DNA of 64,000 nt from assembly GCA_949152475.1 (NCBI GenBank), contig OX424559.1, positions 31,167,119 to 31,231,118 on the forward strand, given 5' to 3'. A program made the translations under genes and the position numbers. Origin of the DNA: Terebella lapidaria (lineage: Eukaryota > Annelida > Polychaeta > Terebellida > Terebellidae). The first letter of the stretch is position 1; each line of letters begins with the position of its first letter. Positions 25,490-63,770 of this stretch are shown here, piece after piece. Below the pieces are notes generated by a model that had not been told where the DNA came from, did not search any database, and worked only from the letters and a program-made list of their open reading frames with translations.

Positions 25490-26047
25490 TGTGACGTTTG
25501 GTAATGACTTGTTTTCGGTGTGGCCCAAAAAACCTGGTTTCTCTGATCGTATAGACTTTATGTAACTCCCGCTCGTTGTGATTCGAGAGCCGTCACTAAA
25601 TTGGTGTCCCCCAACGCTGGTGTATCATCACTCCGTAGCTCACCGGCTTCACTTAGGCAAGAAGCAACTCAGATGTAAATAAATTGAAGATTTATATACA
25701 TCAAATCAACTTACAATTGTATGGCTGGTCACCCACGTGACGTACAAATATGAAGTTCAGACATGGAGCACTGTATGATCACATTTCAAAAATAAATAGT
25801 GCACGAGGGCACAACTAAAAAGAGTTCTTGGCCGGCGGCGTCTCTCTGTCCCTTCCCGTTGAAGTTTCCCGTCCCGCTTAGTCGAATGGTTTCTCCAGGT
25901 AGTCGGTCTAAATCCCGGTTGACTCTAAGGCCCTGAAGAAGGAGTCGTCCGCACGGAGTTCGTCGAGTCCCTTGGCTGTGGCGGTGACGATCTCCCCACG
26001 GTCGATGTCGCTGTTGCAGTGCTCTCAGAGCGGCCGTCCGCTCTCCC

Positions 26048-26055
26048 TTATATAG
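26048..26055 (-). promoter_or_regulatory. LTR TATA box
   Basis: The minus strand reads GGCTATATAAGGGAG. It lies on the gene-proximal side of the motif array, as in a normal U3 promoter. The copy in the 5' LTR is at about 36,110-36,117 and would drive gag-pol. Confidence 0.7.
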
Positions 26056-26080
26056 CCAGGGTGGCTGCGCGCGCATCTTC

Positions 26081-26315
26081 GTCCGCGAACGTATCTTCCG
26101 CACTCTTCTCCACGTGGTGAAGACTGCGTCCGCGAACGGTTCTTCCGCGAAGGCTCCTCTTCCGCGAACGGTGCTTCCGCGACTGATGCTTCCGCTGACG
26201 ATGCTTCCGCAATCGTGCTTCCGCGAACGGTTCTTCCGCGAACGATGCTTCCGCTGATGATGCTTCCGCAATCGTGCTTCCGCGAACGGTTCTTCCGCGA
26301 ACGGTGTCTTCGCAA
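26081..26315 (-). promoter_or_regulatory. TTCCGCGAACG motif array in the LTR
   Basis: Seven exact CCGCGAACG copies and several variants (TTCCGCTGACG, TTCCGCAATCG) lie in 235 bp directly upstream of the LTR TATA box, in the transcription direction. The same array is at 36,143-36,377 in the other LTR. TTCCGCGAA fits the pattern TTCNNNGAA. Position suggests an enhancer or binding-site array; this is inferred. Confidence 0.75.
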
Positions 26316-26385
26316 GTGGACTTTGTAGATCACGTGACCGTTCCTAACGAACGTTTCAGCGCGGCAGTTGCATGGTTTTGTTACA

Positions 26386-26400
26386 ACTCCACCCTTTCTG
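26386..26400 (-). promoter_or_regulatory. Polypurine tract
   Basis: Immediately upstream of the 3' LTR the minus strand reads AGAAAGGGTGGAGT, a purine run that normally primes plus-strand DNA synthesis. Confidence 0.8.
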
Positions 26401-26505
26401 GAGATCAACGTCCCCGTTGATCCTTTCTCTCTCTTCTTTTCTCTTCTTCCTCCTTCTTCGTCTTTTCCTGCCTGTCTGATGTTTACAGGGCTCTCTCCCT
26501 CCACT

Positions 26506-27594
26506 TCACTGGCGATCCACCTCGCTTTCGGACGTCTCCGCCAGCCTGTCTCGAGTGTCTGTATATGCTCGGAGCTGTTCCCGGAGCAGCTTGGTCTCTC
26601 GGACGTGGGCTCGCAGCTCCTTCCGGTGGCTCTTCTCTCGTTGAGAGGCCTCCCCTCGCAGCTGCAGCACCTCGGCCTCGAGCTGTCTCTGCTCCTCCTT
26701 GGCTTGGAGCCGAGCCTCCGCTTGGGTGAGGTGGCGTCGTCCCATGGCTATCGTGGATGCCAGGTCCTCCAGGGCCTTCTCTCCGGCAGTGACCGCTCTG
26801 CCCAGGCCCTCCACATACGGTCGCAGTTGGTCCTCCTCCTCCGGAACGGGCTTGAGGTACCAACTCAGGTCTAGGGGCTTGTAGGTAGGGGCCGAGTCTC
26901 TGGGAACGGGGGGTCCGTCGTCCTCGGGGGTGGGGGCCTCCGGGGATTCCGCCTCTCTCCGCTCCTGCTGAGACTCCGGTTCCTCTTCGCTATTCGGGGG
27001 GTCGTCCTCGGGGTCTGGGGCGTCCTCTGACCTGGGGGCGTCCTCCCGGGGGCTTGACGGCGTGGAGCTGGTCGTCCCGCTGGCCGCAAAGCTGACAGTC
27101 TTCAGCTCAGGGGCAGACACAGTAGTCGGACCATCTCGGGGGTCGGACACGGGCGTGTCGGTCGTCGTCCTCCTCCGTCCTGGCTTGAGGGTGTTGCCGC
27201 TGGCATGCGACGTCTCATGCCGGTCTCTGTCAGCTCGGCGGGCGAATCGCTGGCTGCACATCTTGCAGAGGTGCCGCCCCTCCTTCTGCGTGTGTTTGGT
27301 CGCCACGTGTCGGCTAAAGTTGGATGCCGTCACGTGGATCCGGCAGGGGCTGCACCAGCGTCGCCCTCTCTCGGTGGACAACTTCCGGGCAGGGGACCGT
27401 CGACCTCCTCGGGGCTCCTCACGACGCTCCCGGCTCCTCGAGCGCTCCCGCTTCCGGTCAGGCTTGGTAGGTGGGTCGCTCATCTTGTCGACTTCAAGGG
27501 GCAGAAAGTCAGCCAAGTCGAAATCTGGAACGTCCCCGAAATCTTCGTCTGCAAATGCGGGTATCTCAATGATCTGCAGAGTTGGTGTGTTCAT
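26506..27594 (-). CDS. Third ORF: C2H2 zinc-finger and coiled-coil protein
   Basis: 362 residues in the position where retroviruses carry env. It has no signal peptide or membrane segment, so it is not an envelope protein. Residues 1-35 are acidic, and 44-70 are Arg/Ser-rich (KRERSRSRERREE), a likely nuclear signal. Two zinc fingers follow: C81-C84-H96-H101 (X2-X11-X4) and C110-C113-H126-H130 (the classic X2-X12-X3). Residues 185-240 are acidic and proline-rich, like an activation or interaction domain. Residues 260-345 are a long Gln/Glu/Leu heptad region, probably a coiled coil for dimerisation. A motif array and a TATA box precede it. It was not recognised as a known family; a DNA-binding regulator of the element is the best guess. 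Confidence 0.85.
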   Translation of the reverse strand: MNTPTLQIIEIPAFADEDFGDVPDFDLADFLPLEVDKMSDPPTKPDRKRERSRSRERREEPRGGRRSPARKLSTERGRRWCSPCRIHVTASNFSRHVATKHTQKEGRHLCKMCSQRFARRADRDRHETSHASGNTLKPGRRRTTTDTPVSDPRDGPTTVSAPELKTVSFAASGTTSSTPSSPREDAPRSEDAPDPEDDPPNSEEEPESQQERREAESPEAPTPEDDGPPVPRDSAPTYKPLDLSWYLKPVPEEEDQLRPYVEGLGRAVTAGEKALEDLASTIAMGRRHLTQAEARLQAKEEQRQLEAEVLQLRGEASQREKSHRKELRAHVRETKLLREQLRAYTDTRDRLAETSESEVDRQ

Positions 27595-27629
27595 GGTTGA
27601 AGTGATGACGGAATCGTAGGCCGGCCTGC

Positions 27630-27637
27630 TTATATAG
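27630..27637 (-). promoter_or_regulatory. Internal TATA box before the third ORF
   Basis: The minus strand reads TTTCTATATAAGCAGG, 36 bases before the ORF3 ATG. The motif array lies just upstream. Predicted transcripts would have a very short leader. The ATG context (CAACCATGA) is favourable, with A at -3. Confidence 0.55.
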
Positions 27638-27704
27638 AAAAGGCGCGGACCAGGGATCTGGGGGAAAAAGCATTGTCGTGGAACGAAATAACGTTTTTCG
27701 CTTG

Positions 27705-27820
27705 CTTCCGCGAACGGTTCTTCCGCGAACGCTGCTTCCGCGAACGTGCTTCCGCGAACGGTACTTCCGCGAACGCTGCTTCCGCGAACGCTGCTTCCGC
27801 GAACGGTTCTTCCGCGAACG
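27705..27820 (-). promoter_or_regulatory. Motif array upstream of the third ORF
   Basis: Eight exact CTTCCGCGAACG copies lie in 116 bp at 14-15-bp spacing, between the pol stop and the TATA-like box before ORF3. The arrangement repeats that of the LTR. Confidence 0.8.
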
Positions 27821-27833
27821 CTCCCGTCATCGT

Positions 27834-30800
27834 TTACATCGTTTGGACTGCATTCCCGCTGTTTTCCACTCGTCCCTCGTCATCACTGGGGGTCCGGACT
27901 GGGGTCACATCGTCCGGATTGGGTATCCAGGCGTCGGTTTCAGGGGTGAACCAGCACCTTTTTATATTGTCAATGTGGACATCTTTAATCTTGCCACCGG
28001 GTCGATCTTGTATGGACACCATCCATCCGAGATGAGACTTCACAACGAGATAAGGTCCCGTCCACCCTAGTCCTAGTTTTGGTCTAGCCTTTGGAGGGTA
28101 CCAATACATCACCCAGGTGCCCACCGGAAAATGTCGAGCGGCTGATTTTATGTCATGATGGCGCTTTTGTCGCACCGTAGCCGTCTTCAGGCACTCTCGG
28201 GCAGTCTCGTGAGCTTGTATGGTGGCTTCCTTCACCCATTCGACGTATTCGGACGCACACTCGGGGACTGGTCCTCCCAAATCGTCCGGTTTCGTCCGGT
28301 ACCTCAGGTCCAATGGGGTGGTTGCCTCCCGTCCCATCATCATTCGAAATGGTGTACACCCGGTGCTTTCGTGTACTGATGTTCTATAAGTCGCCATCAC
28401 GTAGGGCAGATGGTCGTCCCAGTCGTCATGGTTCTCGTCCACGACCACGGCCAGAAGGTTCAGCAGGGTCCGGTTGAATCGCTCGACCATCCCGTCTGAT
28501 TTGGCGTGATAAGGGGTCGTCCGAGTCTTCTCCCCTCCTAGGATCTTGATCATCTCAAGGAAAAGCTTACTCTCGAACTCTCGTCCCTGGTCGGTGTGTA
28601 TCTTGGCTGGCATTCCCAGGCGGCACACGAACTCAGTCACAAAGACGTCCGCCACCGTCTGAGCCTCATGGTTGGGTAGAGCGTAGGCCTCAGTCCACTT
28701 GGTGAAATAATCACCCACGACCAGTATATACCGGTTCCCAGAATTGGTGATCGTTCCAGGCTCCAAAATGTCCATGGCCACCCTTTCTAGCCGATCGCCT
28801 ACCGGTAGATTTCCCATGGGGTGGTACTTGGGCCCCGGTCGCGGCTTTCTCCCACTACACTTCAGGCACTCCCGGCACCAACGCTCCACGTCCTTCGTCA
28901 TACCCGGCCAGTACATTCTCGCTTTTAGTCGGTGGACTGTTTTGGTGATTCCCTGGTGGCTCATCAGCTTGCCGGTGTGGACCTCCTTCATGACGGCGCG
29001 TCTCAGGACCTGTGGAACGACCAGTTGATGGATTGGTGCGTTCTGGCAAGCCGCTTGGTACCGCCGGTACAGAAGCCCATCACGTAGCTCCAGCTGGTCC
29101 CACTGTTGCCACAGAGTCTTCATTTGCTGACTTTTTGTTCTGACTTCGGGCCATGCAGGTCTCTCAGTGAAAATATTCTTCCACCCGAGGATGCCTCCAA
29201 CTTCAGGGTCGGCTCGTTGAAGGGTCACTAGGTCCTCCTGGGAATAACCATTCAGGACCTGGGCCTCCGGGGCTCCCTCCATCGGATTCCGGCGTCCTCC
29301 CGTAGCCATAGCCCGCGTGACAGCTAGCATTTGTTTGTCTGGATCTCGGAGCACAGGGTTGGGGCATGGGTCCAGGAAGGGCTCCTCTCGGCAGCGCATC
29401 CACACGTCGGCCGTCGCGCCGATCGCTGCTCCGGCCACAACCTCCGGTCCCAAACCATGCAGTGCGAGGAGCATCATCAGGAGAAACCAAACCCAGGCAG
29501 AGGGGCGGAGCTGATGCAGGGTTCTGCAGACGCTCCTGGCTCCTTCCTCCGTCTGTGGGGGGCTCCGGTCAGGCAGGCATTCCTCGGTCGGCTGGGTAGT
29601 CGTCCTCGGGTCCTCCTGGCAGCGCACCTCCCAGATCTGGAATATCCCGACTCCATCTCCGCAATAGTAGTCCTCCGTCCAGGGCTCCACAGGGACCTCC
29701 CGCAAGATGTTAACTTGAGGTCCTCCGGGGCTCCATCCTTCTCCGCTGATCGGTGGAAGCAGATCCTCGTCAGAGAGGTCCTCCAGGGGTAGGGGACACT
29801 CCTCCTGAGTCGGACAGGCCTCCTCTTCTCCTTCGGGTCTTGTGGTGTGGCGAGGGGCGGGACAATCCGGTCTCCGGCACTGTCGGCATCTGGACATCCC
29901 GTCTGCATTCCCGTGTTGTACTCCCGGTCGGACCTCACACCTGAAGGCGTAGCTGGCGATGCGAGCTGCCCATCTAGCGATCATTCCTTCCGCATCCCGA
30001 AAGTTCAGTAGCCACTTGAGAGAGGCGTGGTCGGTTCGTAGTAAGAACGCTCTCCCCCACAAGAAATGTCTGAAATGGTGTATCATACTGACGACGGCCA
30101 GGAGCTCCCGCTTGGTGGTGCAGTAATTCCGCTGGGTGTCCCTCAGGGTTCTGGAAGCATAGGCGATCACCCGCTCTCGTCCGTCCTGCACTTGGGATAA
30201 GACGCCTCCCACTCCGTAGCCGCTAGCATCAGTATCTAAAATAAATTCTTGGTCCATGTCAGGGTACACCAGCAGGGGGTGCTCGGTCAGGGGTTGACGC
30301 AGCGCCTCGAACGCCTGCTGATGAGCCTCGCTCCAATGGTAGTTGACTTCCTTCTTTAACAGGTGGTTGAGGGGTCCCGCTCGGGTGGCAAAGTCAGGGA
30401 TGAATCTGCGGTAGTACCCCACGAACCCAAGGAAGCTCCTTAGTTCTGTCAAGGTGGTCGGAGGAACCATTTTTGTTACAGCTTCGACCTTGGCAGGGTC
30501 GCACTGGATGCCTCGGTCGGACACGACATGGCCCAGGAAGTTGACCTGTTGTCGAAACAGCTCACACTTGGCGGGTTTCAGCTTCAGCCCGGCAGCCTGC
30601 AGTCTCCGGAACACGTCCTCGAGGTTGTCCACGGCTTCTTGGAAAGTCTTTCCAAGACAGACGACATCGTCCAAATAAATTAGACAACGCTTCCATTGGA
30701 GTCCCCTCAGTGCCAGCTCCATTAGACGTTCAAAAGTAGCCGGGGCCGTCGCCAATCCAAACGGCATCACTTTAAATTGATAGAGTCCACTACGGGTAGT

Positions 30801-32906
30801 GAACGCCGTCTTCTCCTTGTCCCTGTCGTCCATCTCGACCTGCCAGTAACCACTAGCCAAGTCTAGCGTCGAAAAATATCGTCCTCCTGACAAGGTATCA
30901 AAACTCTCGTCGACTCGAGGCAGGGGGTACGCATCCTTCCGGGTGACATCATTTAGACGGCGGTAGTCGACGCAAAATCTCAGTGCACCATCCTTCTTTT
31001 TCACTAGCACGATGGGAGACGACCATGGACTGTCGCTTGGCTCCACAACGTCAGCTTTCAACATCTTGTCGACCTCGTCCTCGATCAGCTCTTGTTGGTA
31101 GTACGGGGCTCTCCTCAGAGGCTGCTTGATCGGGGGGTGATCTCCCGTGTCGATGACGTGTTTCGCCAGGGACGTCCGGCCCAACCTCCCATCTGGTCCC
31201 ATAAAGACCTGCTGGTGGCGTCGAAGGAGATCGCTGACGACCTCCACCTCCTTTTCCGTCAAGTTCGGATGCATTCCCTCCAGGAGCGGTTCTAAATGCT
31301 CCGGGCACTCTGGTGTCTTCGTCGACGATTCTGCGTGCATGGCGTGCACTCTGGTTTCGGGCTGCTCAGGCGTCCGGTTCCGCCACTTGGTGGAGTTTGG
31401 TGTAAGGGGCTCATGCTCCCTCCCGCTCTCCTCCCGGTACCACTGTTCCCTTTTAGGTTCATTCTGGGTTGTTTTCCCTCCATCGGGACGAAATCCCAGG
31501 TCGATCACGGCCTCTATTCCGTGAAGCTCGGCTAGGATGGTCCCCATCAGCACAGTGCAAGCTCCAGCGCCGGCGTTCAGAAGTACCACCGGTACCAGGC
31601 GTCCTCGGGGTCGTACCAGGGCTCGTCCCACTACGAGGGGGTCGTCCTCCAACGGCTCTCTTGCGGACTGCACGAGGCCGGCCTTCGGAACTCCTCCCTC
31701 ACTTCCTGTCAGCTTGAGGTCCACCATCATCTCTGAAAAGGGTGGCAAGACGACCGTCTCCTCCGTCACCAGTGTGTAGACGGCGCCCTCGTGGCCCGAG
31801 CTCATCACTACGGTAGTGTCGCCCACCTGCCACTCGCCCTTACGCAGATCCAGCTGTCCCCCAATCTGTTGAAGTACATCAAGCCCCAACACTCCCGGGA
31901 TCCCTAGTTTGGCTACCAGTACATCTGCCGACACGAGTCGTGTGCCCAGTAGAAGTTGAACTGTCATCTCTCCTTGAACCTGTAAGTAGTCTCCGGTTGC
32001 TGCCCGTAACCTTATTCTCGTCTGCCTTATCATTGCTTTATGTTCGTCATCCATTTGGTCGAAGAGACACTCGTCCAGAACGGTGGAAGAGGCACCCGTG
32101 TCCACCAACATACGAGTCGCCTTCCCCATAACGTGGCACGCCGCATACCACGCCAATGTGCCTCGGGCACCGGCTGACAGCGACACCACCTGGCCATTTC
32201 TGTCAATCTTAAGAGAGCTGCCACTCTCCTCAGGGACGCCGCCCTGGATAAGTACTGAGTCGTCCACCCACAGTGATGCACCACCCTGGTCCTCTCTGTC
32301 AGTCTTAAGGGAATCACTCCCCTCGGAACCGCCGCTCCGGATAAGTAATGAGTCGTCCACCAGCAATAGCTGCTGCGCTGGCCCCTTGGTCATTCCGCTC
32401 CACCGGCCCTCCGTCTCCTCTTTCACGGCCGCTTGTGGTTCAGTTGCATAGGGGGGTCCCTGCTGTTTCGCAGCCTCCAGCCTCAAGGTTGTAACCTGTT
32501 GGTTCTCCTTGCTGCTAGCAGAAACCTCGTTGATGTCTCCGTGGGTCCCCAGACGCTCCACGGCTCCATCGGTCTGCATTTCGTCGACGTCTCCGCGGGT
32601 CATTAGACGCTCCACGGCTCCATCGGTCTGCATTTCCTTGACGTCTCCGCGGGGCATTAGACGCTCCACGGCTCCATCGGTTTGCTGTACATTGGCACTC
32701 CCGTCTGTGTTGACAGGCTTGCCCTCCAAATAGTCGAGAATTCGATCCTCGAGCTCCTCCTGCGCCCATCCAGTTACTTCGGATGCACACCGGAAAAACC
32801 TATTAAAAATCTGTGAAACTAAAAATTCCCCCCTGGCAATGTGTTCTTCACGTCTTCGTCGAGCTTCTCGCCTGTGAAGCCGTGCACACACCTGCCAATG
32901 GCCCAT
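27834..32906 (-). CDS. pol: Pol polyprotein (protease, RT, RNase H, integrase)
   Basis: 1,690 residues from the first ATG; it is probably reached by -1 frameshift from gag. The N-terminus has three MQTDGAVERL-type repeats (76-120) and two VDDSxLI modules (183-221). The protease motif is LVDTGASS (D269). RT runs about 580-780 with catalytic D682 (LDLASGYWQ) and YLDD at 744-747. RNase H runs about 885-1005 with D891, E934 and D959. A roughly 200-residue linker holds a hydrophobic segment at 1136-1165. Integrase has an HHCC zinc site (about 1310-1350), D1379, D1439 (HTDQGREF) and E1475, D-D-35-E spacing, then a GPY/F module (GWTGPYLVV, 1614-1622). No chromodomain is visible. All catalytic residues are present, so it may be active. 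Confidence 0.95.
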   Translation of the reverse strand: MGHWQVCARLHRREARRRREEHIARGEFLVSQIFNRFFRCASEVTGWAQEELEDRILDYLEGKPVNTDGSANVQQTDGAVERLMPRGDVKEMQTDGAVERLMTRGDVDEMQTDGAVERLGTHGDINEVSASSKENQQVTTLRLEAAKQQGPPYATEPQAAVKEETEGRWSGMTKGPAQQLLLVDDSLLIRSGGSEGSDSLKTDREDQGGASLWVDDSVLIQGGVPEESGSSLKIDRNGQVVSLSAGARGTLAWYAACHVMGKATRMLVDTGASSTVLDECLFDQMDDEHKAMIRQTRIRLRAATGDYLQVQGEMTVQLLLGTRLVSADVLVAKLGIPGVLGLDVLQQIGGQLDLRKGEWQVGDTTVVMSSGHEGAVYTLVTEETVVLPPFSEMMVDLKLTGSEGGVPKAGLVQSAREPLEDDPLVVGRALVRPRGRLVPVVLLNAGAGACTVLMGTILAELHGIEAVIDLGFRPDGGKTTQNEPKREQWYREESGREHEPLTPNSTKWRNRTPEQPETRVHAMHAESSTKTPECPEHLEPLLEGMHPNLTEKEVEVVSDLLRRHQQVFMGPDGRLGRTSLAKHVIDTGDHPPIKQPLRRAPYYQQELIEDEVDKMLKADVVEPSDSPWSSPIVLVKKKDGALRFCVDYRRLNDVTRKDAYPLPRVDESFDTLSGGRYFSTLDLASGYWQVEMDDRDKEKTAFTTRSGLYQFKVMPFGLATAPATFERLMELALRGLQWKRCLIYLDDVVCLGKTFQEAVDNLEDVFRRLQAAGLKLKPAKCELFRQQVNFLGHVVSDRGIQCDPAKVEAVTKMVPPTTLTELRSFLGFVGYYRRFIPDFATRAGPLNHLLKKEVNYHWSEAHQQAFEALRQPLTEHPLLVYPDMDQEFILDTDASGYGVGGVLSQVQDGRERVIAYASRTLRDTQRNYCTTKRELLAVVSMIHHFRHFLWGRAFLLRTDHASLKWLLNFRDAEGMIARWAARIASYAFRCEVRPGVQHGNADGMSRCRQCRRPDCPAPRHTTRPEGEEEACPTQEECPLPLEDLSDEDLLPPISGEGWSPGGPQVNILREVPVEPWTEDYYCGDGVGIFQIWEVRCQEDPRTTTQPTEECLPDRSPPQTEEGARSVCRTLHQLRPSAWVWFLLMMLLALHGLGPEVVAGAAIGATADVWMRCREEPFLDPCPNPVLRDPDKQMLAVTRAMATGGRRNPMEGAPEAQVLNGYSQEDLVTLQRADPEVGGILGWKNIFTERPAWPEVRTKSQQMKTLWQQWDQLELRDGLLYRRYQAACQNAPIHQLVVPQVLRRAVMKEVHTGKLMSHQGITKTVHRLKARMYWPGMTKDVERWCRECLKCSGRKPRPGPKYHPMGNLPVGDRLERVAMDILEPGTITNSGNRYILVVGDYFTKWTEAYALPNHEAQTVADVFVTEFVCRLGMPAKIHTDQGREFESKLFLEMIKILGGEKTRTTPYHAKSDGMVERFNRTLLNLLAVVVDENHDDWDDHLPYVMATYRTSVHESTGCTPFRMMMGREATTPLDLRYRTKPDDLGGPVPECASEYVEWVKEATIQAHETARECLKTATVRQKRHHDIKSAARHFPVGTWVMYWYPPKARPKLGLGWTGPYLVVKSHLGWMVSIQDRPGGKIKDVHIDNIKRCWFTPETDAWIPNPDDVTPVRTPSDDEGRVENSGNAVQTM

Positions 32907-32929
32907 ACGGTTGGGGGCTGGTATGAGCC

Positions 32930-35488
32930 CTACTGGTTTTCCGACACCTCGTCTGTCAAACTGTTCCGCTCACCAATCTCCTCGATTAGTCGACTCAAGC
33001 GCTCCTCCTTGGTCCGAGGTGGCGGCCGATCTGGACACTGGTACTTCCGATGACCCGGCTTCCCACAGTACCAACAGTCATCTGGTCCCGGCCTAGCGCT
33101 TGGTCCCTTGTTCTCAGCAGTGGCGGCCCTCGGCTTGATGGATAGCACCTGCTCACACAGCTCGATTAGTCGATCCAGCTTCCTGTCTTGGCTCTCAAAG
33201 AGCCCCTTGAAGTAGGGAAGTCTGGGTAGACCCGCTACGTTCGGCTGGTTGCTCTGCTGCCCACTGGTGGTAATCTCGCCTCCCTGCTGGTTCTTCAACA
33301 GCTGTAGGACCCGTCCTAGAGCTGGCTCGGAGTCCTCCGACTCTATGGACATCACCGGCTTCCCAGGCTTGGGTTTGACACATTCGTACTGGGTCACGAA
33401 CGCTATGGCCTCCTCCATGGTCTTCATCTTCCTCATGAGCGCCATCACCTTCATGTCCCCATCTGGATGGCCCTTCCAGAAGTGGTCTAAGGCGATAGCC
33501 TCCTGAGCTGCGGAGTTCAGATCCGGATAACCACGGCCGGCCAGTCGCTGCAACTCATAGCCGTACTGCTGGGGTGTCTCTGCCTTCCTGCGGGTTCTCT
33601 GTCCCAAGGTCGCCTTGTAGGACTCCTCCTGACAGTCAGGGTCGAATCGTAGGGTCAGCTTGTCGGTCAGAACGTCGATGTCCCTCCGGTCTGCAGGACT
33701 CAGGCTGGTCAGCATTCGTCGCGCCTCTCCTGTCAAGCTCCCGGCTAAGTAGACGCCCTGTTCCCGCTTGCTCCATCCGTTGACCTCTGCGATGACGTCA
33801 AAGTGGGCCCGGTACACCGGCCACTCTATGGAAGTCCCATCGAACTTGTCAGGGGTCAGCATCTTCCGGTTCCTTCTGCCGTTCTGATTCCAGACTGTGC
33901 TGTCCTCGGACGACGAGTCCTCCTGCCTCCGTCTCGGCCTAGGGCTTCGTCGGTGCAGCGGCGGTCCCCGCCTCGGTGGTCTCCTCCCCCGTCCTGGGTA
34001 ACCATGGCTGCTGTCGGTCCCTCCATCAGATGAAGGCCCCTCATCGCCCGATGATGAGAAAGGGTGCTGTCTCCGGCCTCCCTGGGTGACTGAAATAGAA
34101 GCTGGATTTCTCCAGGAGGCTGGCTGTCTCGGTTGTCGACTGGGTGAAGACCTCCCTCTTCCGCGAACGCTGTCTTCCGCGAACCCTCCGCGAACACTGT
34201 CTTCCGCGAACCTTCCGCGAACGGACTCTTCCGCCAACAGCTCCCGAAGAAGTTCTTCCGCGAACAGGCCTCTTCCGCGAACGCCGTCTTCCGCGAGTCT
34301 TCCGCGAACGGGCTCGTCCGCCAAGATGTCTCGGAGACGTCCCTCCACAAAAGATGCACGTCCGCGAACGCCATCTTCCGCGAGTCTTCCGCGAACCGGC
34401 TCATCCGCGAATGGTCTTCCCCGTCTATTCTGAAAAACTGGAAAGGAAGATTGGTCGCCTGGATCACTCCTTTCGTCGAGCCGCCGTCTGGGTGAAGACT
34501 CCTCTCTTCCGCGAACACTCTCTTCCGCGAGTCGTCCTCGTCCGCGAACGTGGTCGTCCGCGAAGGGCCCTCCCCGGTCACAAGCGTCCTCGTCACCAAA
34601 GACTCCCCCTCGCCCACGAGCCCGTTCATCCACGAAGGATCCCCGGCTGCAAGCGTCCCTGTCGCCGAAGAATGCCTCTCGTCCGCGAATGTTCTCTTCC
34701 GCGAAAAGTCCTCTCCCTCTCGAGCTGCTCTCTTGGGTCGGAGCCCAAGTAACCCGTCCTCCAGTCACTCCCGTTTGTCGACTCGTCACACCCGACCGCT
34801 GCCCTGTTGCACCAGACTGCTGCTCTGTTGCACCAGACTGCTGCTGGGACTGGTCCCAAAGCCGTCTCAATGCTGCATTCTCTGGAGGTGCCACACTTGG
34901 ACTCTGCTCCGGTAGCTGTAGCCGATCCCTCCTCGCCCAGATTTCGCCGTCCTCCCCGTCCAGATTGACGTACTCCGGTCCCAGCACTCGTCGGAACTCG
35001 GGGCCCCTCCTAACGCTCTCAAGGTAGGTTGACCTCTCCCTGTCTCGATCGTGCTGCCACCCAGAGTCGTGTCTGAAAAGAAAACGGTTGTCGGGTGTCT
35101 GGCTCCGGGGTCTCTGTTGACTCGTCGACTGGCCCATGGAAGGTCTCGACCTCCCTGGTTGCTCCTCACTCGTCGAAACGTCCCGTCTACCCCTGGCTGT
35201 GAAGCTGCTCTTCCGCGAACGGTCGTCTTCCGCGAACGTTGTCTTCCGCGAACGGTCGTCGGCCTCTTCCGCCAAGGTCGTCTTCCGCGAACGGTTGTCG
35301 TCCGCGAACGTCTTCCGCGAACGGTCGTCTTCCGCGAACGTCTTCCGCGAACGGTCGTCTCCCTCTTCCGCAAAGGTCGGCTTCCGCGAACCGCTGTCTT
35401 CCTCGTCCGCAAGTGAGGCCGTCCGCGAAGAGTCTTCCTCTTCACCTCCTGTCTTCCCTGGGGCAGTTTCGTCGTTTTCGCCGGACAT
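32930..35488 (-). CDS. gag: Gag polyprotein
   Basis: 852 residues from ATG at 35,488; the frame is open further upstream into the LTR. Residues about 20-95 and 255-450 are repeats such as RSRKTTFAEDD and VRGRLAEDG, the translation of the CGTTCGCGGAAG nucleotide motif. An arginine-rich, low-complexity part follows. A capsid-like retrotrans_gag domain lies around residues 560-720 (TPDKFDGTSIEWPVYRAHFD, later RFDPDCQEESY). A CCHC zinc knuckle is at 805-818 (CWYCGKPGHRKYQC), which would bind genomic RNA. At 852 residues it is long for Gag because of the repeat-rich N-terminal half. It is followed by pol in the -1 frame. Confidence 0.9.
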   Translation of the reverse strand: MSGENDETAPGKTGGEEEDSSRTASLADEEDSGSRKPTFAEEGDDRSRKTFAEDDRSRKTFADDNRSRKTTLAEEADDRSRKTTFAEDDRSRKSSFTARGRRDVSTSEEQPGRSRPSMGQSTSQQRPRSQTPDNRFLFRHDSGWQHDRDRERSTYLESVRRGPEFRRVLGPEYVNLDGEDGEIWARRDRLQLPEQSPSVAPPENAALRRLWDQSQQQSGATEQQSGATGQRSGVTSRQTGVTGGRVTWAPTQESSSRGRGLFAEENIRGREAFFGDRDACSRGSFVDERARGRGGVFGDEDACDRGGPFADDHVRGRGRLAEESVRGREESSPRRRLDERSDPGDQSSFPVFQNRRGRPFADEPVRGRLAEDGVRGRASFVEGRLRDILADEPVRGRLAEDGVRGRGLFAEELLRELLAEESVRGRFAEDSVRGGFAEDSVRGRGRSSPSRQPRQPASWRNPASISVTQGGRRQHPFSSSGDEGPSSDGGTDSSHGYPGRGRRPPRRGPPLHRRSPRPRRRQEDSSSEDSTVWNQNGRRNRKMLTPDKFDGTSIEWPVYRAHFDVIAEVNGWSKREQGVYLAGSLTGEARRMLTSLSPADRRDIDVLTDKLTLRFDPDCQEESYKATLGQRTRRKAETPQQYGYELQRLAGRGYPDLNSAAQEAIALDHFWKGHPDGDMKVMALMRKMKTMEEAIAFVTQYECVKPKPGKPVMSIESEDSEPALGRVLQLLKNQQGGEITTSGQQSNQPNVAGLPRLPYFKGLFESQDRKLDRLIELCEQVLSIKPRAATAENKGPSARPGPDDCWYCGKPGHRKYQCPDRPPPRTKEERLSRLIEEIGERNSLTDEVSENQ
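32936..32942 (-). promoter_or_regulatory. Candidate -1 frameshift heptamer
   Basis: The minus strand reads G GAA AAC in the gag frame, two codons before the gag stop. The pol frame is -1 relative to gag and stays open from 32,969, giving a 40-base overlap around this site. GGAAAAC is not the strict XXXYYYZ form, but its AAAAC half is a strong slipping A-site. Confidence 0.55.
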
Positions 35489-35530
35489 GAGTGATGCTGA
35501 GGTTCGTTCCCTGGCAGTAGACCCTCGGGG

Positions 35531-35548
35531 ATCCTGGTCACGGCACCA
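35531..35548 (-). promoter_or_regulatory. Primer binding site, tRNA-His type
   Basis: Three bases after the 5' LTR the minus strand reads TGGTGCCGTGACCAGGAT. Animal tRNA-His ends in GTCACGGCACCA, so the first 12 bases pair exactly and most of the rest would too. This tRNA would prime minus-strand cDNA synthesis. Confidence 0.8.
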
Positions 35549-35551
35549 AGT

Positions 35552-36447
35552 TGTGACGTTTGGTAATGACTTGTTTTCGGTGTGGCCCAAAAAACCTGGT
35601 TTCTCTGATCGTATAGACTTTATGTAACTCCCGCTCGTTGTGATTCGAGAGCCGTCACTAAATTGGTGTCCCCCAACGCTGGTGTATCATCACTCCGTAG
35701 CTCACCGGCTTCACTTAGGCAAGAAGCAACTCAGATGTAAATAAATTGAAGATTTATATACATCAAATCAACTTACAATTGTATGGCTGGTCACCCACGT
35801 GACGTACAAATATGAAGTTCAGACATGGAGCACTGTATGATCACATTTCAAAAATAAATAGTGCACGAGGGCACAACTAAAAAGAGTTCTTGGCCGGCGG
35901 CGTCTCTCTGTCCCTTCCCGTTGAAGTTTCCCGTCCCGCTTAGTCGAATGGTTTCTCCAGGTAGTCGGTCTAAATCCCGGTTGACTCTAAGGCCCTGAAG
36001 AAGGAGTCGTCCGCACGGAGTTCGTCGAGTCCCTTGGCTGTGGCGGTGACGATCTCCCCACGGTCGATGTCGCTGTTGCAGTGCTCTCAGAGCGGCCGTC
36101 CGCTCTCCCTTATATAGCCAGGGTGGCTGCGCGCGCATCTTCGTCCGCGAACGTATCTTCCGCACTCTTCTCCACGTGGTGAAGACTGCGTCCGCGAACG
36201 GTTCTTCCGCGAAGGCTCCTCTTCCGCGAACGGTGCTTCCGCGACTGATGCTTCCGCTGACGATGCTTCCGCAATCGTGCTTCCGCGAACGGTTCTTCCG
36301 CGAACGATGCTTCCGCTGATGATGCTTCCGCAATCGTGCTTCCGCGAACGGTTCTTCCGCGAACGGTGTCTTCGCAAGTGGACTTTGTAGATCACGTGAC
36401 CGTTCCTAACGAACGTTTCAGCGCGGCAGTTGCATGGTTTTGTTACA
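35552..36447 (-). repeat. 5' LTR
   Basis: 896 bp. On the minus strand it begins TGTAACA and ends CGTCACA, the usual TG...CA. The motif array (36,143-36,377) is followed by a TATA box at about 36,110-36,117. It therefore holds the promoter of the element. Confidence 0.95.
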
Positions 36448-39802: not shown

Positions 39803-42800
39803 AAAATTAGCCCAAGGGCTAAGATAGGTTACCGGACATATTTGGCTTTAAGCATTGCAAGTGACATATGACTTTGAGATTTACTAATCAAGGTCATCTT
39901 TGTGAACTGCAATATCACCATTAGGTATGCTGCATATGACTTCATATATGTTCGTAATACAAACATATAAGCTCTATCAACAAGTATTTTGTCTGTAGAG
40001 GCCAATTTACACATGTCAGGTCAGGCAAGGTTGTGAGATTTGGATTTCAAGGTCATATATAAGGTCAAATTCAAGGTCTCCAAGAGATGTGCTATAAATA
40101 CATGACTTCTTGTTAACTTATACACAATCCTAACCTGTATGTGCAAGTGTTTAAGCCTTGGCTAATATACATATTTCACATCAGACATTTAGCACTCAAA
40201 ATCATCTGAGGTCAAGGTCATCATCAGTTGTTCCATATATGACCTTCTATATGCTCATAATGCAAACTTTTAAAGCTCTATCTACAAGCATTTCATCTGT
40301 AGAGGCAAATCTGTGCCATTTTTTCTACCCCAAAATGGCTGTTTTGACCTTTCAAGGTCATCAAAGGTCAAATTCAAGGTCACCACACAAGTCGCCATAT
40401 ATGACTTCCCATTTGAAAGTGCCAATTTCTAAGCTCTATCTTCAAGTGTTCTATGAGTACAATCCGCGCAGTTCCCATTATGAAGGAAAAAAGTGCCGAA
40501 AATTTTCTAAGTCCAAAATTTTTTTCACAGGGTGAAAACATTTTTTTGTCTAGAAATGACCCTAAATGGATAGCAATGCGATTTGGGCCGAAAAATGTTT
40601 TTTTCGTCGACCCGTCGAAAATTCAAAATGGCAGCCATACGCAGACCGGCGATTCAAGGGCAACCAAACTTATACACATCACAGAGGTACATAACTAGAA
40701 TCTTTTGAAACAAAAATCTCAAATCTGATCAGACAGTTTTCGAGAAAAGACAGACAAGGTGCTAATTTGGACATTTTTCGACCAAAAAATGGCTGTTTTG
40801 ACCTTTCAAGGTCATCCAAGGTCAAATTCAAGGTCACCACACAAGTCGCCATATATGACTTTCCATTTGAAAGTGCCAATTTCTAGGGCCTGCACGATTA
40901 ATGGGTTAACCGCCGACGGCTAGCATTTTTTTAATAACCGTGTATAACCGGCTGTTAAATCTCCAAACGATTAACCGGTTAACCATCAAACACCGGTTAA
41001 CTGTCTTTTATAACCTTGATCAGTGATCACCAAACTGTCTGCTCATGCTCCTGAGGCATGCTTTTGAGGGCATTTAAACTCGTTAACTTTGTCGCCATGG
41101 GGCCATAAAGCGATCTGCGGTTTGTCGCGGTCGCGTGGATGCGTGCCACCTGCTAAAGGGATTATGTGTGTGCATCTTTAACAGATACACAGGCTCGCGG
41201 CTTTCTCTCATATTAATATCGAAATTAACGAAGTTAAATAGGGGAAATACAAGTTTTCCTAAATGAAACATAAAGACACCTACACACACATAGACATATA
41301 GCAATCAAAACCATTCGGGGACGTATTAAGAAGTGAACCCCAAACACTTCGCCTCAGGCTTAACTTCGGATGGTAAGGATTGTATATGTGAAAGAATGTG
41401 CAATGTCAGGTATAACGCAATCAGAACTGGAAAGAGCACATATATTCAGTAATATGCAAAATATGTACAGTTAATACAGTTTAGTTCATTGAGTTATACA
41501 TATATGTTGAGGTTATATTTCAATAGTTTCCAAATCTTCAGCAAGAAGTAAAAGATTTTAAAAAATGCGGTCAAAGGTCAAATTCAAGGTCATCAAAATA
41601 TTAGGCGTTTATCATTTCCTATATGCCCACAACTGATTCCTAAGCTACAAATTCGACCATAAGTGAGATATTAGCCATTTTGTGTTCTTGACCTTGAAAA
41701 TGAGGTCAGAGGTCAAATTCAAAGTCACAAGAATATTCAGCATATATCATATCCTACATGTCCACAAATGATCCCGAAGCTGTAAAATCGATAATAAGTG
41801 AGATATTAATCATTTTGTCCTGTGACCTTGAAAATGAGGTCAAAGGTCAAATTCAAGGTCATGACAATAATCTGCATATATCATTTCCTATATGTTCATA
41901 ATTGATTCCTAAGCTGTAAAGTCGATAAGAAGCGAGATATTAGCCATTTTGTCGTGACCTTGAAAATGAGGTCAAAGGTCAAGTTCAAGGTCATGACAAT
42001 AATCTGCATATATCATTTCCTATATGTTCATAATTGATTCCTAAGCTGTAAAGTCGATAATAAGTGAGATATTAGCCATTTTGCCCTGTGACCTTGAAAA
42101 TGAGGCCAAAGGTCAAATTCAAGGTCATGACAATAATCTGCATATATCATTTCCTATACGTCCACAATTGATTCCTAGGCTGTAAAGTCGATAATAAGCG
42201 AGATATTAGCCATTTTGTTCTCTGACCTTGAAACTGAGGTCAGAGGTCAAATTCAAGGTCACGATAATATTCAGCATATATTATTTTCTATATGTCTGCA
42301 ATTGATTCCTAAGCTGTAGAGTCGATAATAAGCGAGATATAAGCCATTTTGTGCTCTGACCTTGAAACTGAGGTCAGAGGTCAAATTCAAGGTCACGAGA
42401 ATATTCAGCATATATCATTTCCTATATGTCCACAATTGATTCCTAGTCTCTAATCTCAATATCAAGTGAGATATTAGGCATAATGTGTCACATTATAAAG
42501 CATAGGAGAATTTAACATGGGAAAGTCCCATTTGGGCCGAGTTTGGGCCAAAATGGCCCACTTCGAGCAATTCAAGCGCAACGAAATTTATAGACATCAT
42601 AGAAGTACATATGAGGAGTGTTATGTATCAAAAAGAAAAAAAGTTACTGAACAGATTTTGAGAAAATGGCCGCCAAAGTCGAAAATCAGGCCTTTTTCGT
42701 CGAAAACGGCCGCCATTTTGAAGAAAAAGCGAAAATCAAAAAACTAAAAAATACCTCTTGAATTATTTTTGAGTACTTTTCTGCAAAATTTCAGAAAAAT

Positions 42801-51897: not shown

Positions 51898-54655
51898 ATT
51901 AGCCCAATGGGCTAGAAAGGTTACCGGAGAAATATACAGAGTTAAGCCGAGAAAGTTCAAGGTCAAATTCAAGGTGACCACTGAAATCGCCATATCTCTA
52001 ACCTTGAAAATGGGATCAAAGGTTAAATTCTAGATCACCAAACTATTCAGCATACATCATTTCCTATATGTTCACTATGGACCCCTAAGCTGTAATTTGA
52101 TAATAAGCGAGATATAAGCCATTTTGTAATCTGACTTCGTAAATAAAATGACTGACCTTGAAATTTAGGTCAAAGGTCAAATTCAATATCATTAAAATAT
52201 TCAGAATATATCATTTCCTATATGTTCACAATTGATTCCTAAGCTGTAAAGTCGATAATAGGCAAGATATTAGCCATTTTGTCCTGTTGACCTTGAAAAT
52301 GAGGTCAAAAGTCAAATTCAAGGTCACCAGAATTTTCAGCATATATCATTTCCTATATGTTCACAGTTGATTCCTAAGCTGCAAAGTCGCTAATAAGCAA
52401 TATATTGGCCATTTTGTCCTGTGACCTTGAAAATGAGGTCAAAGGTCAAATTCAAGGTCACGAGAATATTCAGCATATATCATTTCCTATATGTTCACAA
52501 CTGATTCCTAAGCTGTAAAATGGATAATAAGTGACATATTAGCAATTTTGTCCTGTGACCTTGGAAATGAGGTCAAAGGTCAAAGGTCAAATTCAAGGTC
52601 ATGAGAATATTCAGCATACATCATTTCCTATATGCTCACAATTGATTCCTAAGCTGTAAAGTCGATAATAAGCGAGATACTAGCCATTTTGTCATGTGAT
52701 CTTGAAAATGAGGTCAAAGGTCAAATTCAAGGTCATGAGAATTTTCAGCATATATCATTTCCTATATGTTCACAATTGATTCCTAAGCTGTAAAGTCGCT
52801 AATAAGCAAGATATTGGCCATTTTGTCCTGTGACCTTGAAAATGAGGTCAAAGGTCAAACTCAAGGTCACGAGAATTTTCAGCATATAACGTTTCCTATA
52901 TGTTCACAATTGATTCCTAAGCTGTAAAGTCGCTAATAAGCAAGATATTGGCCATTTTGTCATGTGACCTTGAAAATGAGGTCAAAGGTCAAATTCAAGG
53001 TCACGAGAATATCCAGCATATATCATTTCCTATATGTTCACAATTGATTCCTAAGCTGTAAAGTCGATAATAAGCGAGATATTAGCAATTTTGTCCCGTG
53101 ACCTTGGAAATGAGGTCAAAGGTCAAATTCAGGGTCACGCAAATATTCAGCATATATCATTTCCTATATGTTCACAATTGATTTCTAAACTGTAAAGTCG
53201 ATAATAAGCGAGATATTAGCCATTTTGTCATGTGACCTTGAAAATGAGGTCGAAGGTCAAATTCAAAGTCACAAGAATATTCAGCATATATCAATTTCTA
53301 TATGTTCACAATTGATTCCTAAGCTGTAAAGTCTATAATAAGCGAGATATTAGCCATTTTGTCCTGTGACCTTGAAAATGAGGTCAAAAGTCAAATTCAA
53401 GGTCACGAGAATATTCAGCATATATCATTTTCTATATGTACACAATTCATTCCTAGTCTCTAATTTCAATATTAAGTGAGATATTAGGCTTAATGTGTCC
53501 CATTATAAAGCATAGGAAAATTTAACATGGGAAAGTCACATTTGGGACGAGTTTGGGCCCAAAATGGCCCACTTCAAGCGATTCAAGGGCAACAACATTT
53601 ATACATGTCACAGGGGTACATATGAGGAGTGTTTTTCATCAATAAGAAAAAAAAGTTACTCAACAGATTTTGAGAAAACGACCGTCAAAGTCCAAAATTG
53701 GCCATTTTTCGACGAAAACGGCCGCTCTGACCTTGAAACCAAGGTCAGAGGTCAAATTCAAGGTCATGACAATATTCAGCATATATCATTTCCTATATGA
53801 CCACAATTGATTCCTAGTCTCTAATCTCAATATTAAGTGAGATATTAGGCTTTAATGTGTCCCATTATAAAGCATAGGATAATTTAACATGGGAAAGTCC
53901 CATTTGGGCCGAGTTTGGGCCCAAAATGGCCCACTTCGAGCGATTCAAGGGCAACGAAATTTATACATGTCACAGGGGTACATATGAGGAGTGTTTTTCA
54001 TCAATAAGAAAAGAAAGTTACTGAACAGATTTTGAGAAAACGACCGTCAAAGTCCAAAATTGGCCATTTTTCGACGAAAACGGCCGCTCTGACCTTGAAA
54101 CCAAGGTCAGAGGTCAAATTCAAGGTCACGACAATATTCAGCTTATATCATTTCCTATATGCCCACAATTGATTCCTAGTCTCTAATCTCAATATTAAGT
54201 GAGATATTAGGCTTTAATGTGTCCCATTATAAAGCATAGGATAATTTAACATGGGAAAGTCCCATTTGGGCCGAGTTTGGGCCCAAAATGGCCCACTTCG
54301 AGCGATTCAAGGGCAACGAAATTTATACATGTCACAGGGGTACATATGAGGAGTGTTATGCATCAATAAAAAAAAAGTTACTGAACAGATTTTGAGAAAA
54401 TGGCCGCCAAAATCCAAAATTGACCGTTTTTCGATGAAAACGGCTGCCATTTTGAATAAATTGCGAAAATCAAAAAAACTAAAAAATACCTCCCTCTCGA
54501 AATATTTTTAGGCATTTTTGTGCAAAATTTCAGAAAAATTCGATCGTAAACTTTAAAGATAAAATTGTTGACGGACGACGACGCCGGACGACGACGACGC
54601 CGGACGCATCGCCATGCCAATAGGTTACGGACCATAGGTCCGGTAACCTAAAAAA
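51895..54655 (-). mobile_element. HINE-like element with the longest tandem core
   Basis: It starts AAATTAGCCCAATGGGCTAG, then AAAGGTTACCGG, and ends ATAGGTCCGGTAACCTAAAA. Tandem monomers of 133-134 bp fill about 52,150-53,450; landmarks are at 52289, 52423, 52557, 52699, 52832, 52966, 53100, 53234 and 53368. A longer repeat of about 360 bp (53.5-54.3 kb) then carries the unique flank in two to three copies. No protein is encoded. Confidence 0.75.
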
Positions 54656-61084: not shown

Positions 61085-63770
61085 AGAATAATTACGATGA
61101 CATATGCAGCCACATACTAGTTACTTGCTGAATCACTTGGAAAACTATTGGGACCTGGGACGTTCGTTGTGCACAGAACCAAATTTACACACCGCCCAGA
61201 CTAAAATCAACGCCCCGACATTACAGGTCGCCTGGAATGATTCATGAGCGAAACAGAAGTGTAATGCTTTTTACCATCTACATACTTGTCGCCATAGTTT
61301 AATGTTTTTTTTTTCATATAGACAAACTAGAAGTTGGGTAAGTATAGTATATGTGCCAGCCAAACAAGTAGTAGTGGTGTAACGGTCTAGTGACGCGCAT
61401 CACCCACTCTCAGGGTGTGGCAGCTTGATGTTTTAGACTTTCTCTTTACATTTTCTTCGCAGATTGTGCACCATGTTAGTCAATAATATAATACCACGTA
61501 ACTTTTCCATCTCTATTCACATTCATAATACTGATGATTATAATATTTTGGAAATGTGAATGTTGTAAGAATACGTGCTAACATTATTGTGCATAAATAT
61601 GACTAATTGTTACTCATTAACGACATCAGATAACACGCTTTGTCTTTTATTAGGTTGTTTTAGTCGAAAGTTAATCACAAATTCATGTTGAAACGAGGTG
61701 AAAATGCATAGAAAAGCGATTCAAACCAATAAAATTCTGATTTTATTTTTATGGACATCATAGTGGACATCCAAGTAATGCATACACAGAGTTACAAACC
61801 TACAGATTGTTGGGCGGTGAAATGAAGATTGATATCAATTGAATGCATCTTTCTTCATCACTCCTGTGAAAACATCTTACGGTGTTTTTAGGTTACCGGA
61901 CCTTTGGTCCGATAACCTATTGCCGTGGCGTTGCGTCCGTCGTCCGTCGTCGTCGTCCGTCGTCGTCCGTCGTCGTCCGTCTACATTTTTATCTTTAAAT
62001 TTTACAATCGAATCTTTCTGAAATTTTGCACAAAAATGCCTAAAAATATTTCGAGAGGGAGGTATTTTTTATTTTTTTGATTTTCGCAATTATTTCAAAA
62101 TGGCGGCTGTTTTCGTCGAAAAATGGCCAATTTTGGACTTTGGCTGTCGTTTTCTCAAAATCTGTTCAGTAACTTTTTTTCTTATTCATGCATAACACTC
62201 CTCATATGTACCTCTGTGACATGTATAAATTTCGTTGCCCTTGAATCGCTCGAAGTGGGCCATTTTGGGCCCAAACTCGGCCCAAATGGGACTTTCCCAT
62301 GTTAAATTCTCCTATGCTTTATAATGGGACACATTAAGCCTAATATCTCACTTAATATTGAGATTAGAGACTAGGAATCAATTGTGGACATATAGGAAAT
62401 GATATATGCTGAATATTGTCGTGACCTTGAATTTGACCTCTGACCTCATTTTCAAGGTCACAGGACAAAATGGCTAATATCTCGCTTATTATCGACTTTA
62501 CAGCTTAGAATTCAATTGTGAACATATAGGAAATGATATATGCTGAATATTCTCATGACCTTGAATTTGACCTTTGAACTCATTTTCAAGGTCACATGAC
62601 AAAATGGCTAATATCTCGCTTATTATCGACTTTACAGCTTAGGAATACATTGTGAACATATAGGAAATGATATATGCTGAATTTTCTCGTGACCTCGAAT
62701 TTGACCTTGACCTCATTTCCAAGGTCACAGGACAAAATTGCTAATATCTCGCTTATTATCGACTTTACAGCTTAGGAATCAATTGTGAACATATAGGAAA
62801 TGATATATGCTGAATATTTTTGTGACCTTGAATTTGACCTTTGACCTCATTTTCAAGGTCACAGGACAAAATGGCAAATATCTTGCTTATTATCAACTTT
62901 ACAGCTTAGGAATCAATTGTGAACATATAGGAAATTATATATTCTGAATATTCTCATGACCTTGAATTTGACCTTTGACCTAAATTTCAAGGCGAGTAAT
63001 TTTATTTTCAAGGTCAGAATACAAAATGGTTTATATCTCTCTTATTATCAAATTCACATCTTAGGGGTCCGTAGTGAACATATAGGAAATGATGTATGCT
63101 GAATATTTTGGTGATCTAGAATTTGACCTTTGATCCAATTTTCAAGGTCAGAGGACAAAATGGCTAATATGTCGCTTATTATCATCTTTACAGCTTAGGA
63201 ATCAATTGCGAATATAGGGGAATAATATATACTGAATCTTTTCATGAACTTGAACTTTGACCTCATTTTCTAGGTCACATCACTGATCATAGAATGGCTA
63301 ATATCTCACTTATTATCGACTTTACAGCTTAGGAATTTATTGTGGACATACTAGAAGTGATATATTTGTTGAAAAATTATTTTCAAGGTCACTGGACAAA
63401 AGGCTAATATCTAAAATGTATATTGTCCGGTAACCTTTCTTAGCCCTTGGGCTAATTTTTCATTTTCTGGCGATGCTTTGGTGAGGCTCTACTTGTCTAG
63501 CAAGTTGTTTCAGGGCACATTTCACATCCAGTGAGTGCCTATTACAAAGGTACAATGGGTGTAACGGTCTAGTTGCCTACACTTGTTATAAAGCGAGCGG
63601 GGAGGGGGGGGGGGGTCGTACGACATTGGAAGGAAAGCGTTAAAATAACATGCCCCCTATAGTTTACTGCTTACACCAAAAAAATTCTCATCCAAAATTA
63701 AACAGGTTTGTGTAGTTTTACTCAAATCTTATATGTACATGTACAGATGAACGACAAGAAATGTGTCGCC
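61085..63770. repeat. Inverted duplication, right arm (interrupted)
   Basis: This is the reverse-orientation partner of 58,155-59,475. It is split by a hairpin-ended element at 61,886-63,460; the left arm keeps the empty site (reading TGTTCTTTCATTTTC in this orientation). A G-rich run lies at 63,600-63,616. Confidence 0.8.
61886..63460 (+). mobile_element. HINE-like element, forward copy
   Basis: It starts TTTTTAGGTTACCGGACC, then TTTGGTCCGATAACC (a hairpin), followed by repeated GTCGTCC. It ends TTGTCCGGTAACC, then TTAGCCCTTGGGCTAATTTT (a second hairpin). About seven to eight monomers of the 134-bp unit lie at 62,400-63,420 in the reverse sense to those at 52 kb. Insertion is into a T-rich site (GTGTTTT / TTTTCATTTTC), with a short TTT-type duplication possible. 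It has no coding capacity. Confidence 0.75.

Follow-up and report, generated by a model that had tools for sequence, protein, structure and literature searches.

Foamy viruses encode a DNA-binding transactivator, Tas, which is made from an internal promoter and acts first on that promoter and then on the long terminal repeat (LTR), a positive feedback described in PMC3798896 and PMC3185809. Among retroviruses, according to PMC3798896, only foamy viruses have a self-encoded transactivator supplied from an internal promoter. Here we describe a Ty3/gypsy-type element from Terebella lapidaria, found in a window of 64,000 nt (the whole stretch analysed; contig OX424559.1, 31,167,119-31,231,118, with positions below in window coordinates), whose third open reading frame, ORF3, appears to encode the element's own transcription factor, a self-encoded activator of both the LTR and an internal promoter. 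We give this reading a probability of roughly two in three. The Tas circuit appears to be the closest known logic, a parallel absent from the first-pass annotation of this DNA. An array and a TATA box stand before ORF3, where we propose an internal promoter; the element differs from foamy viruses in being Ty3/gypsy-type, with no env found and a two-finger C2H2 protein in place of Tas. Its arrays consist of a short, regular motif; for the response elements of foamy viruses, PMC3798896 describes no obvious conservation of sequence from one virus to another. Our searches of open-access papers yielded no description of such a circuit for an LTR retrotransposon, which is weak evidence of absence. 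Our best reading is of a Ty3/gypsy-type element controlled like a foamy virus, yet not one, in which the circuit would have evolved separately.

VANC, the protein of VANDAL transposons, resembles ORF3 in being element-encoded and in having short-motif arrays of one orientation in the non-coding DNA of its own element (PMC5735166). The target motif of VANC21 is YAGTATTAY, and the function of VANC is loss of methylation. Tandem arrays of uniform orientation likewise occur within the element studied here, and we predict that they are the target of ORF3; the first-pass annotation had drawn the VANC parallel, fairly as far as the self-encoded reading of arrays is concerned. VANDAL, however, is a Mutator-type plant DNA transposon and the present element is an LTR retroelement with a reverse transcriptase (RT), and its arrays, unlike those of VANC, also lie inside gag and before TATA boxes. 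TnpA of En/Spm, also transposon-encoded, binds a short motif present in many copies close to its own promoter, but it belongs to a DNA transposon and is a protein unrelated to ORF3. Drosophila gypsy carries an array of zinc-finger sites for Su(Hw), which has an insulator role; a second parallel of the first-pass annotation, it carries little weight, Su(Hw) being encoded by the host and ORF3 by the element.

The element looks complete and spans 25490-36447 on the minus strand, so that the LTR at 35552-36447 is the 5' LTR. Its principal parts are:

35552..36447, minus strand: 5' LTR, 896 bp, with TG...CA ends
25490..26385, minus strand: 3' LTR, 896 bp
32930..35488, minus strand: gag, from the first in-frame ATG, with a CCHC knuckle
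27834..32906, minus strand: pol, with protease, RT, RNase H, integrase zinc domain and integrase core (Pfam)
26506..27594, minus strand: ORF3, an open reading frame of 362 amino acids

The coordinates, the Ty3/gypsy type and an ORF3 with two fingers and a coiled coil had been proposed before, and our re-analysis agrees, with fingers that are C2H2-like and a coil that is probable.

In the sense orientation, the motif reads GTTCGCGGAAG, and it forms arrays in both LTRs, in the gap between pol and ORF3, and in the N-terminal half of gag only:

36143..36365, minus strand: LTR array, 5' copy, 12 GCGGAA and 2 GCGGAC, spaced mostly 14-17 bp apart, upstream of the LTR TATA box
26081..26303, minus strand: LTR array, 3' copy, upstream of the LTR TATA box
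35211..35392, minus strand: gag array A, in reading frames 0 and 2 (AED / SRK)
34159..34707, minus strand: gag array B, in reading frames 0 and 1 (AED / RGR)
27706..27820, minus strand: gap array, 8 perfect copies, spaced 14-15 bp apart

With up to two mismatches, TTCCGCGAACG has 64 matches in the window against 9.07 expected and a maximum of 18 in 100 shuffles; 60 of them fall in the arrays of the element and 4 are scattered outside it. The sense core GCGGAA is present in 12 copies per LTR, 24 in the N-terminal half of gag and 8 in the gap, which is 239 bp long; shuffle means for these regions are 0.2-0.9. Elsewhere in the element it is found as lone copies, 1 in the C-terminal half of gag, 4 in pol and 1 in ORF3; the count in pol (5,073 bp; shuffle mean 1.57) is within chance, since the shuffle maximum is 6. 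These counts bear out the three array sites named in the first-pass annotation, which had noticed no motif in pol or ORF3, where the lone cores form no arrays. The orientation is uniform, with no antisense core in the element. Outside it (53,043 bp), the plus strand holds no GCGGAA and 16 TTCCGC, 10 of which fall in 298-2245, the site of a 328-bp tandem array. Across the genome (761.6 Mb), the exact 11-mer GTTCGCGGAAG occurs 13,434 times and the reversed pattern 73 times. Array size varies: three LTRs compared hold 7, 12 and 15 GCGGAA, and the gap holds 7-9.

The features of ORF3 on which its predicted target and activity depend are given here, with model confidence as the predicted local distance difference test (pLDDT):

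27292..27354, minus strand: finger 1 (CSPCRIHVTASNFSRHVATKH), T at -7, N at -4 and R at -1, predicting GAn
27205..27267, minus strand: finger 2 (CKMCSQRFARRADRDRHETSH), R at -7, D at -4 and R at -1, predicting GCG
26512..26835, minus strand: C-terminal helix, a probable coiled coil (AlphaFold2 residues 254-361, single sequence, pLDDT mostly 95-97)
27475..27594, minus strand: candidate activation domain, residues 1-40, acidic and F/L-rich

Finger 2 has the canonical C2H2 spacing C-X2-C-X12-H-X3-H; the C2H2 Pfam matches of ORF3 fall under the curated cut-offs. In the C2H2 code as set out in a 2024 review (PMC12264921), the residues at -1, -4 and -7 before the first zinc-binding His read the 5', central and 3' base, with Arg reading G, Asn reading A and Asp reading unmodified C. 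Finger 3 of TFIIIA, with Lys/Asn/Thr, is described there as having a Thr at -7 that is too short for its base. Taking the fingers antiparallel to the DNA strand, with finger 2 on the first triplet and finger 1 on the second, the code translates R/D/R of finger 2 and R/N/T of finger 1 into 5'-GCG GAn-3'. Against a matrix built from the array sites (position-neutral thresholds of at least 9 or at least 8 of 12 consensus matches; n=55 and n=64), GCGGA and its own reverse complement share the first rank among all 1024 five-mers. Conservation was scored leave-one-out, each position being judged on sites chosen by the other eleven: the core bases G, C, G, G and A reach.96,.88,.98,.96 and.96, and the base predicted to be free, an A, is the least conserved of the core at.73, with the following G at.95. 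The CGTTC flank stands at.71,.69,.83,.88 and.76. Variation at the predicted free base is also visible in the LTR of the window, where 14 GCGGA units are followed by A in 12 and by C in 2. From the finger code we infer, and strongly, that ORF3 binds the GCGGA motif.

The gag arrays reveal constraint on the motif at the level of DNA, because it persists in all three frames and through the choice among synonymous codons. In the N-terminal half of gag, the 24 cores divide 12/6/6 among the reading frames and are read as Ala-Glu, Ser-Arg-Lys and Arg-Gly-Arg; counting in the lone core of the C-terminal half makes the division 12/7/6. All 12 Ala-Glu pairs there are written GCG GAA (background probability 0.047 from codon use elsewhere in the element, where 2 of 10 Ala-Glu pairs are so written), as are all 6 Ser-Arg-Lys as TCG CGG AAG and 10 of 22 Arg-Gly as CGC GGA. 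Synonymous codon resampling in 1000 runs gave a mean of 1.31 GCGGAA and a maximum of 5, against the 24 observed. Five of six gag relatives (P0005-P0010, 31-49% identical) lack AE[DE], RSRK and VRG in their first half; the sixth, P0008, has two AE[DE] and one VRG there. Gag is a clear case of a DNA-level constraint dictating both the amino acids and the codons of a structural protein.

These data bear on the view that the arrays are neutral, a minisatellite that slippage and template switching have spread, with ORF3 binding another target or serving as an accessory or integration-targeting protein. Array length does differ between copies, and in one pol relative, P0071, the fingers are fused to the C terminus of pol, as an integration-targeting role might have it. 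Repeat growth may also copy the motif and its codons together, yet it would not easily place them in three frames; in gag the flanks vary and the core persists, both in three frames and through synonymous codons, and the conserved block is the very sequence predicted as the ORF3 target. We consider this view very improbable. Targeting of integration to the motif was also considered; the lack of any GCGGAA or TTCCGC within 1.4 kb of this insertion site speaks against it, though this is a single insertion.

Both non-coding arrays lead into a TATA box, and the boxes, assigned by sequence only, share one sequence:

36109..36117 (5' LTR) and 26047-26055 (3' LTR), minus strand: LTR TATA box CTATATAAG
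27629..27637, minus strand: internal TATA box CTATATAAG, between the gap array and ORF3

The element has three copies of CTATATAAG: each LTR holds one beyond its array, and the third follows the gap array, 34 bp upstream of the ORF3 ATG; an extra TATATAA at 25698 and 35760, inside the LTR, has no array. The layout is retained in other copies. Among 36 loci examined, of which L025 and L026 are LTR stretches picked separately rather than ORF3 loci, all 34 ORF3-bearing loci have 7-9 GCGGAAG and TATATAAG within 245 bp upstream of ORF3. Because the gap array, TATA box and ORF3 repeat the layout of the LTR, ORF3 may well have an internal promoter of its own, a weaker proposition than binding of the motif.

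At least 113 ORF3 copies, the best scores among 1713 first-look candidates, are each 100% identical and free of stop codons. The element has its arrays, its two array-TATA units and, in many copies, an open ORF3. One copy (C1:4610258-4617666; L021, L057), a deletion derivative, has lost parts of pol; its gap array is retained, and its ORF3 is open, with 365 amino acids. The element family looks young and recently very active. Thirty ORF3 loci are without amino-acid change because they were selected by best protein score, and a claim based on the ratio of non-synonymous to synonymous change (dN/dS) was dropped for this reason.

The main rival to self-activation is anti-silencing, in which ORF3 binds the arrays and removes or blocks methylation and chromatin silencing, with promoter activity following, as for VANC. 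The targets of VANC are described in PMC5735166 as dense arrays of one orientation that turn over by tandem repeat, and array sizes vary in the same manner among the copies here. The motif contains CpGs, Asp at -4 reads unmodified cytosine (PMC12264921), and the gag arrays are distant from any promoter. Each non-coding array, however, precedes a TATA box, and an Asp-based reader, which binds unmethylated sites, could keep an open state but hardly start one. Anti-silencing as the primary function is therefore in our judgement unlikely.

Activation, of the three effects offered in the first-pass annotation (activating, insulating or de-silencing), fits best; the proposal that ORF3 binds the motif agrees with the finger code. 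We prefer activation over insulation or de-silencing because both non-coding arrays precede TATA boxes, one of them before ORF3, and because the ORF3 N terminus is acidic and F/L-rich. The tile of residues 2-40 has a charge of -10 and a W+F+Y+L count of 8, and by the activation-domain rules given in PMC10550315 it satisfies the relaxed rule 2, a borderline result. Such rules are weak on their own, because 24 of 128 other proteins match the strict form. The C-terminal helix shows 52% hydrophobic residues at a/d in its best heptad register, a moderate value. In the proposed mechanism, ORF3 would be made from an internal promoter directly upstream of its gene, and its two fingers would bind 5'-GCGGA(A/C)G-3', with finger 2 on GCG and finger 1 on GAn. 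The C-terminal coiled coil would multimerise ORF3 on the closely spaced sites, aiding cooperative binding. Activation of the internal promoter would yield more ORF3 and hence positive feedback, and activation of the LTR promoter would yield genomic RNA and gag-pol; these two steps, too, are held less firmly than the binding. The gag arrays would act as a downstream enhancer held at the DNA level within coding sequence; in simian foamy virus 1, gag contains an enhancer to which Tas binds. The element thus probably switches itself on.

The same binding evidence would serve an autorepressor or insulator, with ORF3 on the arrays damping its own transcription as a copy-number control, or blocking the spread of silencing or the action of enhancers. 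Tramtrack (PDB 2drp) matches both ORF3 fingers by sequence (E=0.0015; two longer zinc-finger proteins score better), and its finger 1 shares the SNFxRH helix with finger 1 of ORF3. Tramtrack is a repressor and a host regulator, and the resemblance of the fingers lends this idea some weight. Finger 2 of ORF3, with R/D/R, differs from that of Tramtrack, and the predicted target therefore differs as well. The acidic, F/L-rich N terminus, borderline as it is, argues against repression, and the high recent copy number does not suggest tight self-repression. An autorepressor or insulator is improbable on this evidence.

Relatives of pol offer a view of the same parts in other elements. Scanning 120 listed of 1773 pol relatives for the pattern, and reading the matches by eye, we found a two-finger domain after the integrase in two, P0016 and P0071. 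In P0016 (RT 72% identical), finger 1 also has the X11 spacing, the linker is 8 residues long, and finger 2, read by eye, has R/D/R and an Ala at -5 as in ORF3; a coiled-coil-like stretch, again judged by eye, lies further on. Between its integrase and fingers are 14 Ala-Glu in 115 residues, where 0.86 would be expected; an unbroken run of 11 keeps an exact period of 7 amino acids, or 21 bp. The P0016 fingers predict GCG GA(c), and GCGGA(A/G) encodes Ala-Glu; by a rough count, a random dipeptide would fit the predicted target in some frame about one time in twenty. The repeat, read from the protein alone, agrees with the predicted target of P0016, which is support rather than proof. In P0012, P0014 and P0015 the end of pol carries peptide repeats, with best periods of 5 amino acids (15 bp) in P0015 and 12 in P0012 and P0014, which are possibly the DNA arrays of other families read as protein. 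The more distant P0113 has short-period repeats behind the integrase and no ORF3 visible in the protein. A two-finger domain and repeats behind pol recur in this lineage. By the code, the P0071 fingers would read roughly AAn-GAn.

Several observations weigh against self-activation by ORF3. Finger 1, with C-X2-C-X11-H-X4-H, lacks one of the 12 residues usual between Cys and His, and a model of the fingers by themselves reaches a low mean pLDDT of 57.9 (block means of 71-78 for residues 81-120 in the full-length model). The code was applied with the motif already known, so the comparison was not blind; the rules themselves are published and fixed. Conservation of the core C (.88) does not exceed that of the best flanking T (.88), and two fingers do not account for the conserved GTTC flank or for the G that follows the core. 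The strict activation-domain rule 1 of PMC10550315, as given there, is missed by one unit. No AATAAA occurs anywhere in the element. Among 5.8 billion sequences, the search for separate ORF3 homologues (E<=0.01), to which longer fused proteins are invisible, returned only the near-identical P0004. Lastly, in P0071 (RT 57%) the two fingers are fused to pol and the protein shows no clear array, and P0012, P0014 and P0015 have repeats and no ORF3 visible in the protein. To the check proposed in the first-pass annotation, whether arrays occur only with ORF3, these relatives give a partial answer: P0016 has both fingers and repeat, and P0071 counts against a strict pairing.

P0004 equals ORF3 apart from a three-residue insertion, and three copies read in the genome likewise have 365 amino acids. 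Its ENA contig of 1767 nt has a length compatible with a transcript from the proposed internal promoter, a tentative idea. Among viral contigs, neither ORF3, an RT piece nor an RT alignment found the DNA of relatives, and the double motif found none either. The RT alignment matched 12 loci in bacterial assemblies (L001-L012), 35-46% identical except for a 98-residue piece at 61%; none of the 12 contains the 11-mer GTTCGCGGAAG. Gypsy-type pol in bacterial assemblies, one of them from a Bathymodiolus symbiont, is probably host contamination. A tandem-repeat scan of three of these loci found none in L012, one 12-bp repeat in L001, and in L008 repeats that include a 16/31-bp one (GGGGCGAACGGG-type) at 118-233, 7.8 kb from the RT match; none is the motif.

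The remaining features agree with those of Ty3/gypsy elements (Metaviridae), as do gag with a CCHC knuckle (18.6 bits, slightly under the Pfam cut-off of 20.8) and the pol order of protease, RT, RNase H and integrase. Its two LTRs are identical (0/896 differences), and CATG on each outer flank forms a 4-bp target duplication, which with the TG...CA ends is typical of the group; PMC12440569 gives 4-6 bp as its norm. The probable primer-binding site, called on its sequence, follows the 5' LTR:

35531..35548, minus strand: probable primer-binding site TGGTGCCGTGACCAGGAT, beginning 3 nt past the 5' LTR

Troyka elements are described as having CG...CG ends and 3-bp duplications, and an identity with Troyka was rejected on the TG...CA ends and 4-bp duplication. 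The sense open reading frames longer than 300 amino acids are gag, pol and ORF3 only, and the proteins scanned gave no env-like Pfam match. Among named relatives, the integrase piece scores best against a sequence of the pseudoscorpion Cordylochernes scorpioides (42% identical); Mytilus, Pinctada and Pecten supply others, and a sea cucumber supplies one relative of gag. Within pol, RNase H and integrase are separated by a region that includes a membrane-like run of hydrophobic residues, WVWFLLMMLLALHGLG, at residues 1138-1153 (29448-29495); residues 437-458 score slightly above it on the same scale. Near the pol start, 32527-32688 holds three 54-bp direct repeats encoding units of the MQTDGAVERLM type. 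The GC content of the element is 54-61% per kilobase (26001-36000), against 33-42% in the host stretch. Large tandem arrays with 328-bp and 134-bp units occupy the host flanks at 11-2364, 41562-42481, 52153-53487 and 62340-62992; to the eye, the satellites of the flanks have a molluscan look.

Binding of ORF3 may depend on unmethylated arrays, because Asp reads unmodified C and the core holds a CpG; the circuit would then be a switch. A wider proposal joins four ideas: a methylation-gated, self-reinforcing switch, sites kept in three gag frames, co-evolution of fingers and arrays across a whole P0016-like lineage of animal elements, and a genome-wide regulator of the host. There, ORF3 would open the LTR once enough protein is present, and thousands of dispersed sites would make it a genome-wide regulator in the host. 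As a whole we regard this combination as tentative and rather doubtful. If self-activation by ORF3 is true, a foamy-virus-like layout would have been assembled from unrelated parts in a Ty3/gypsy element, an instance of independent evolution. The element would offer a retrotransposon in which sequence reveals both the factor and its target, and for this reason the contest between element control and host silencing would become directly testable, with the predicted contacts, sites and promoters named.

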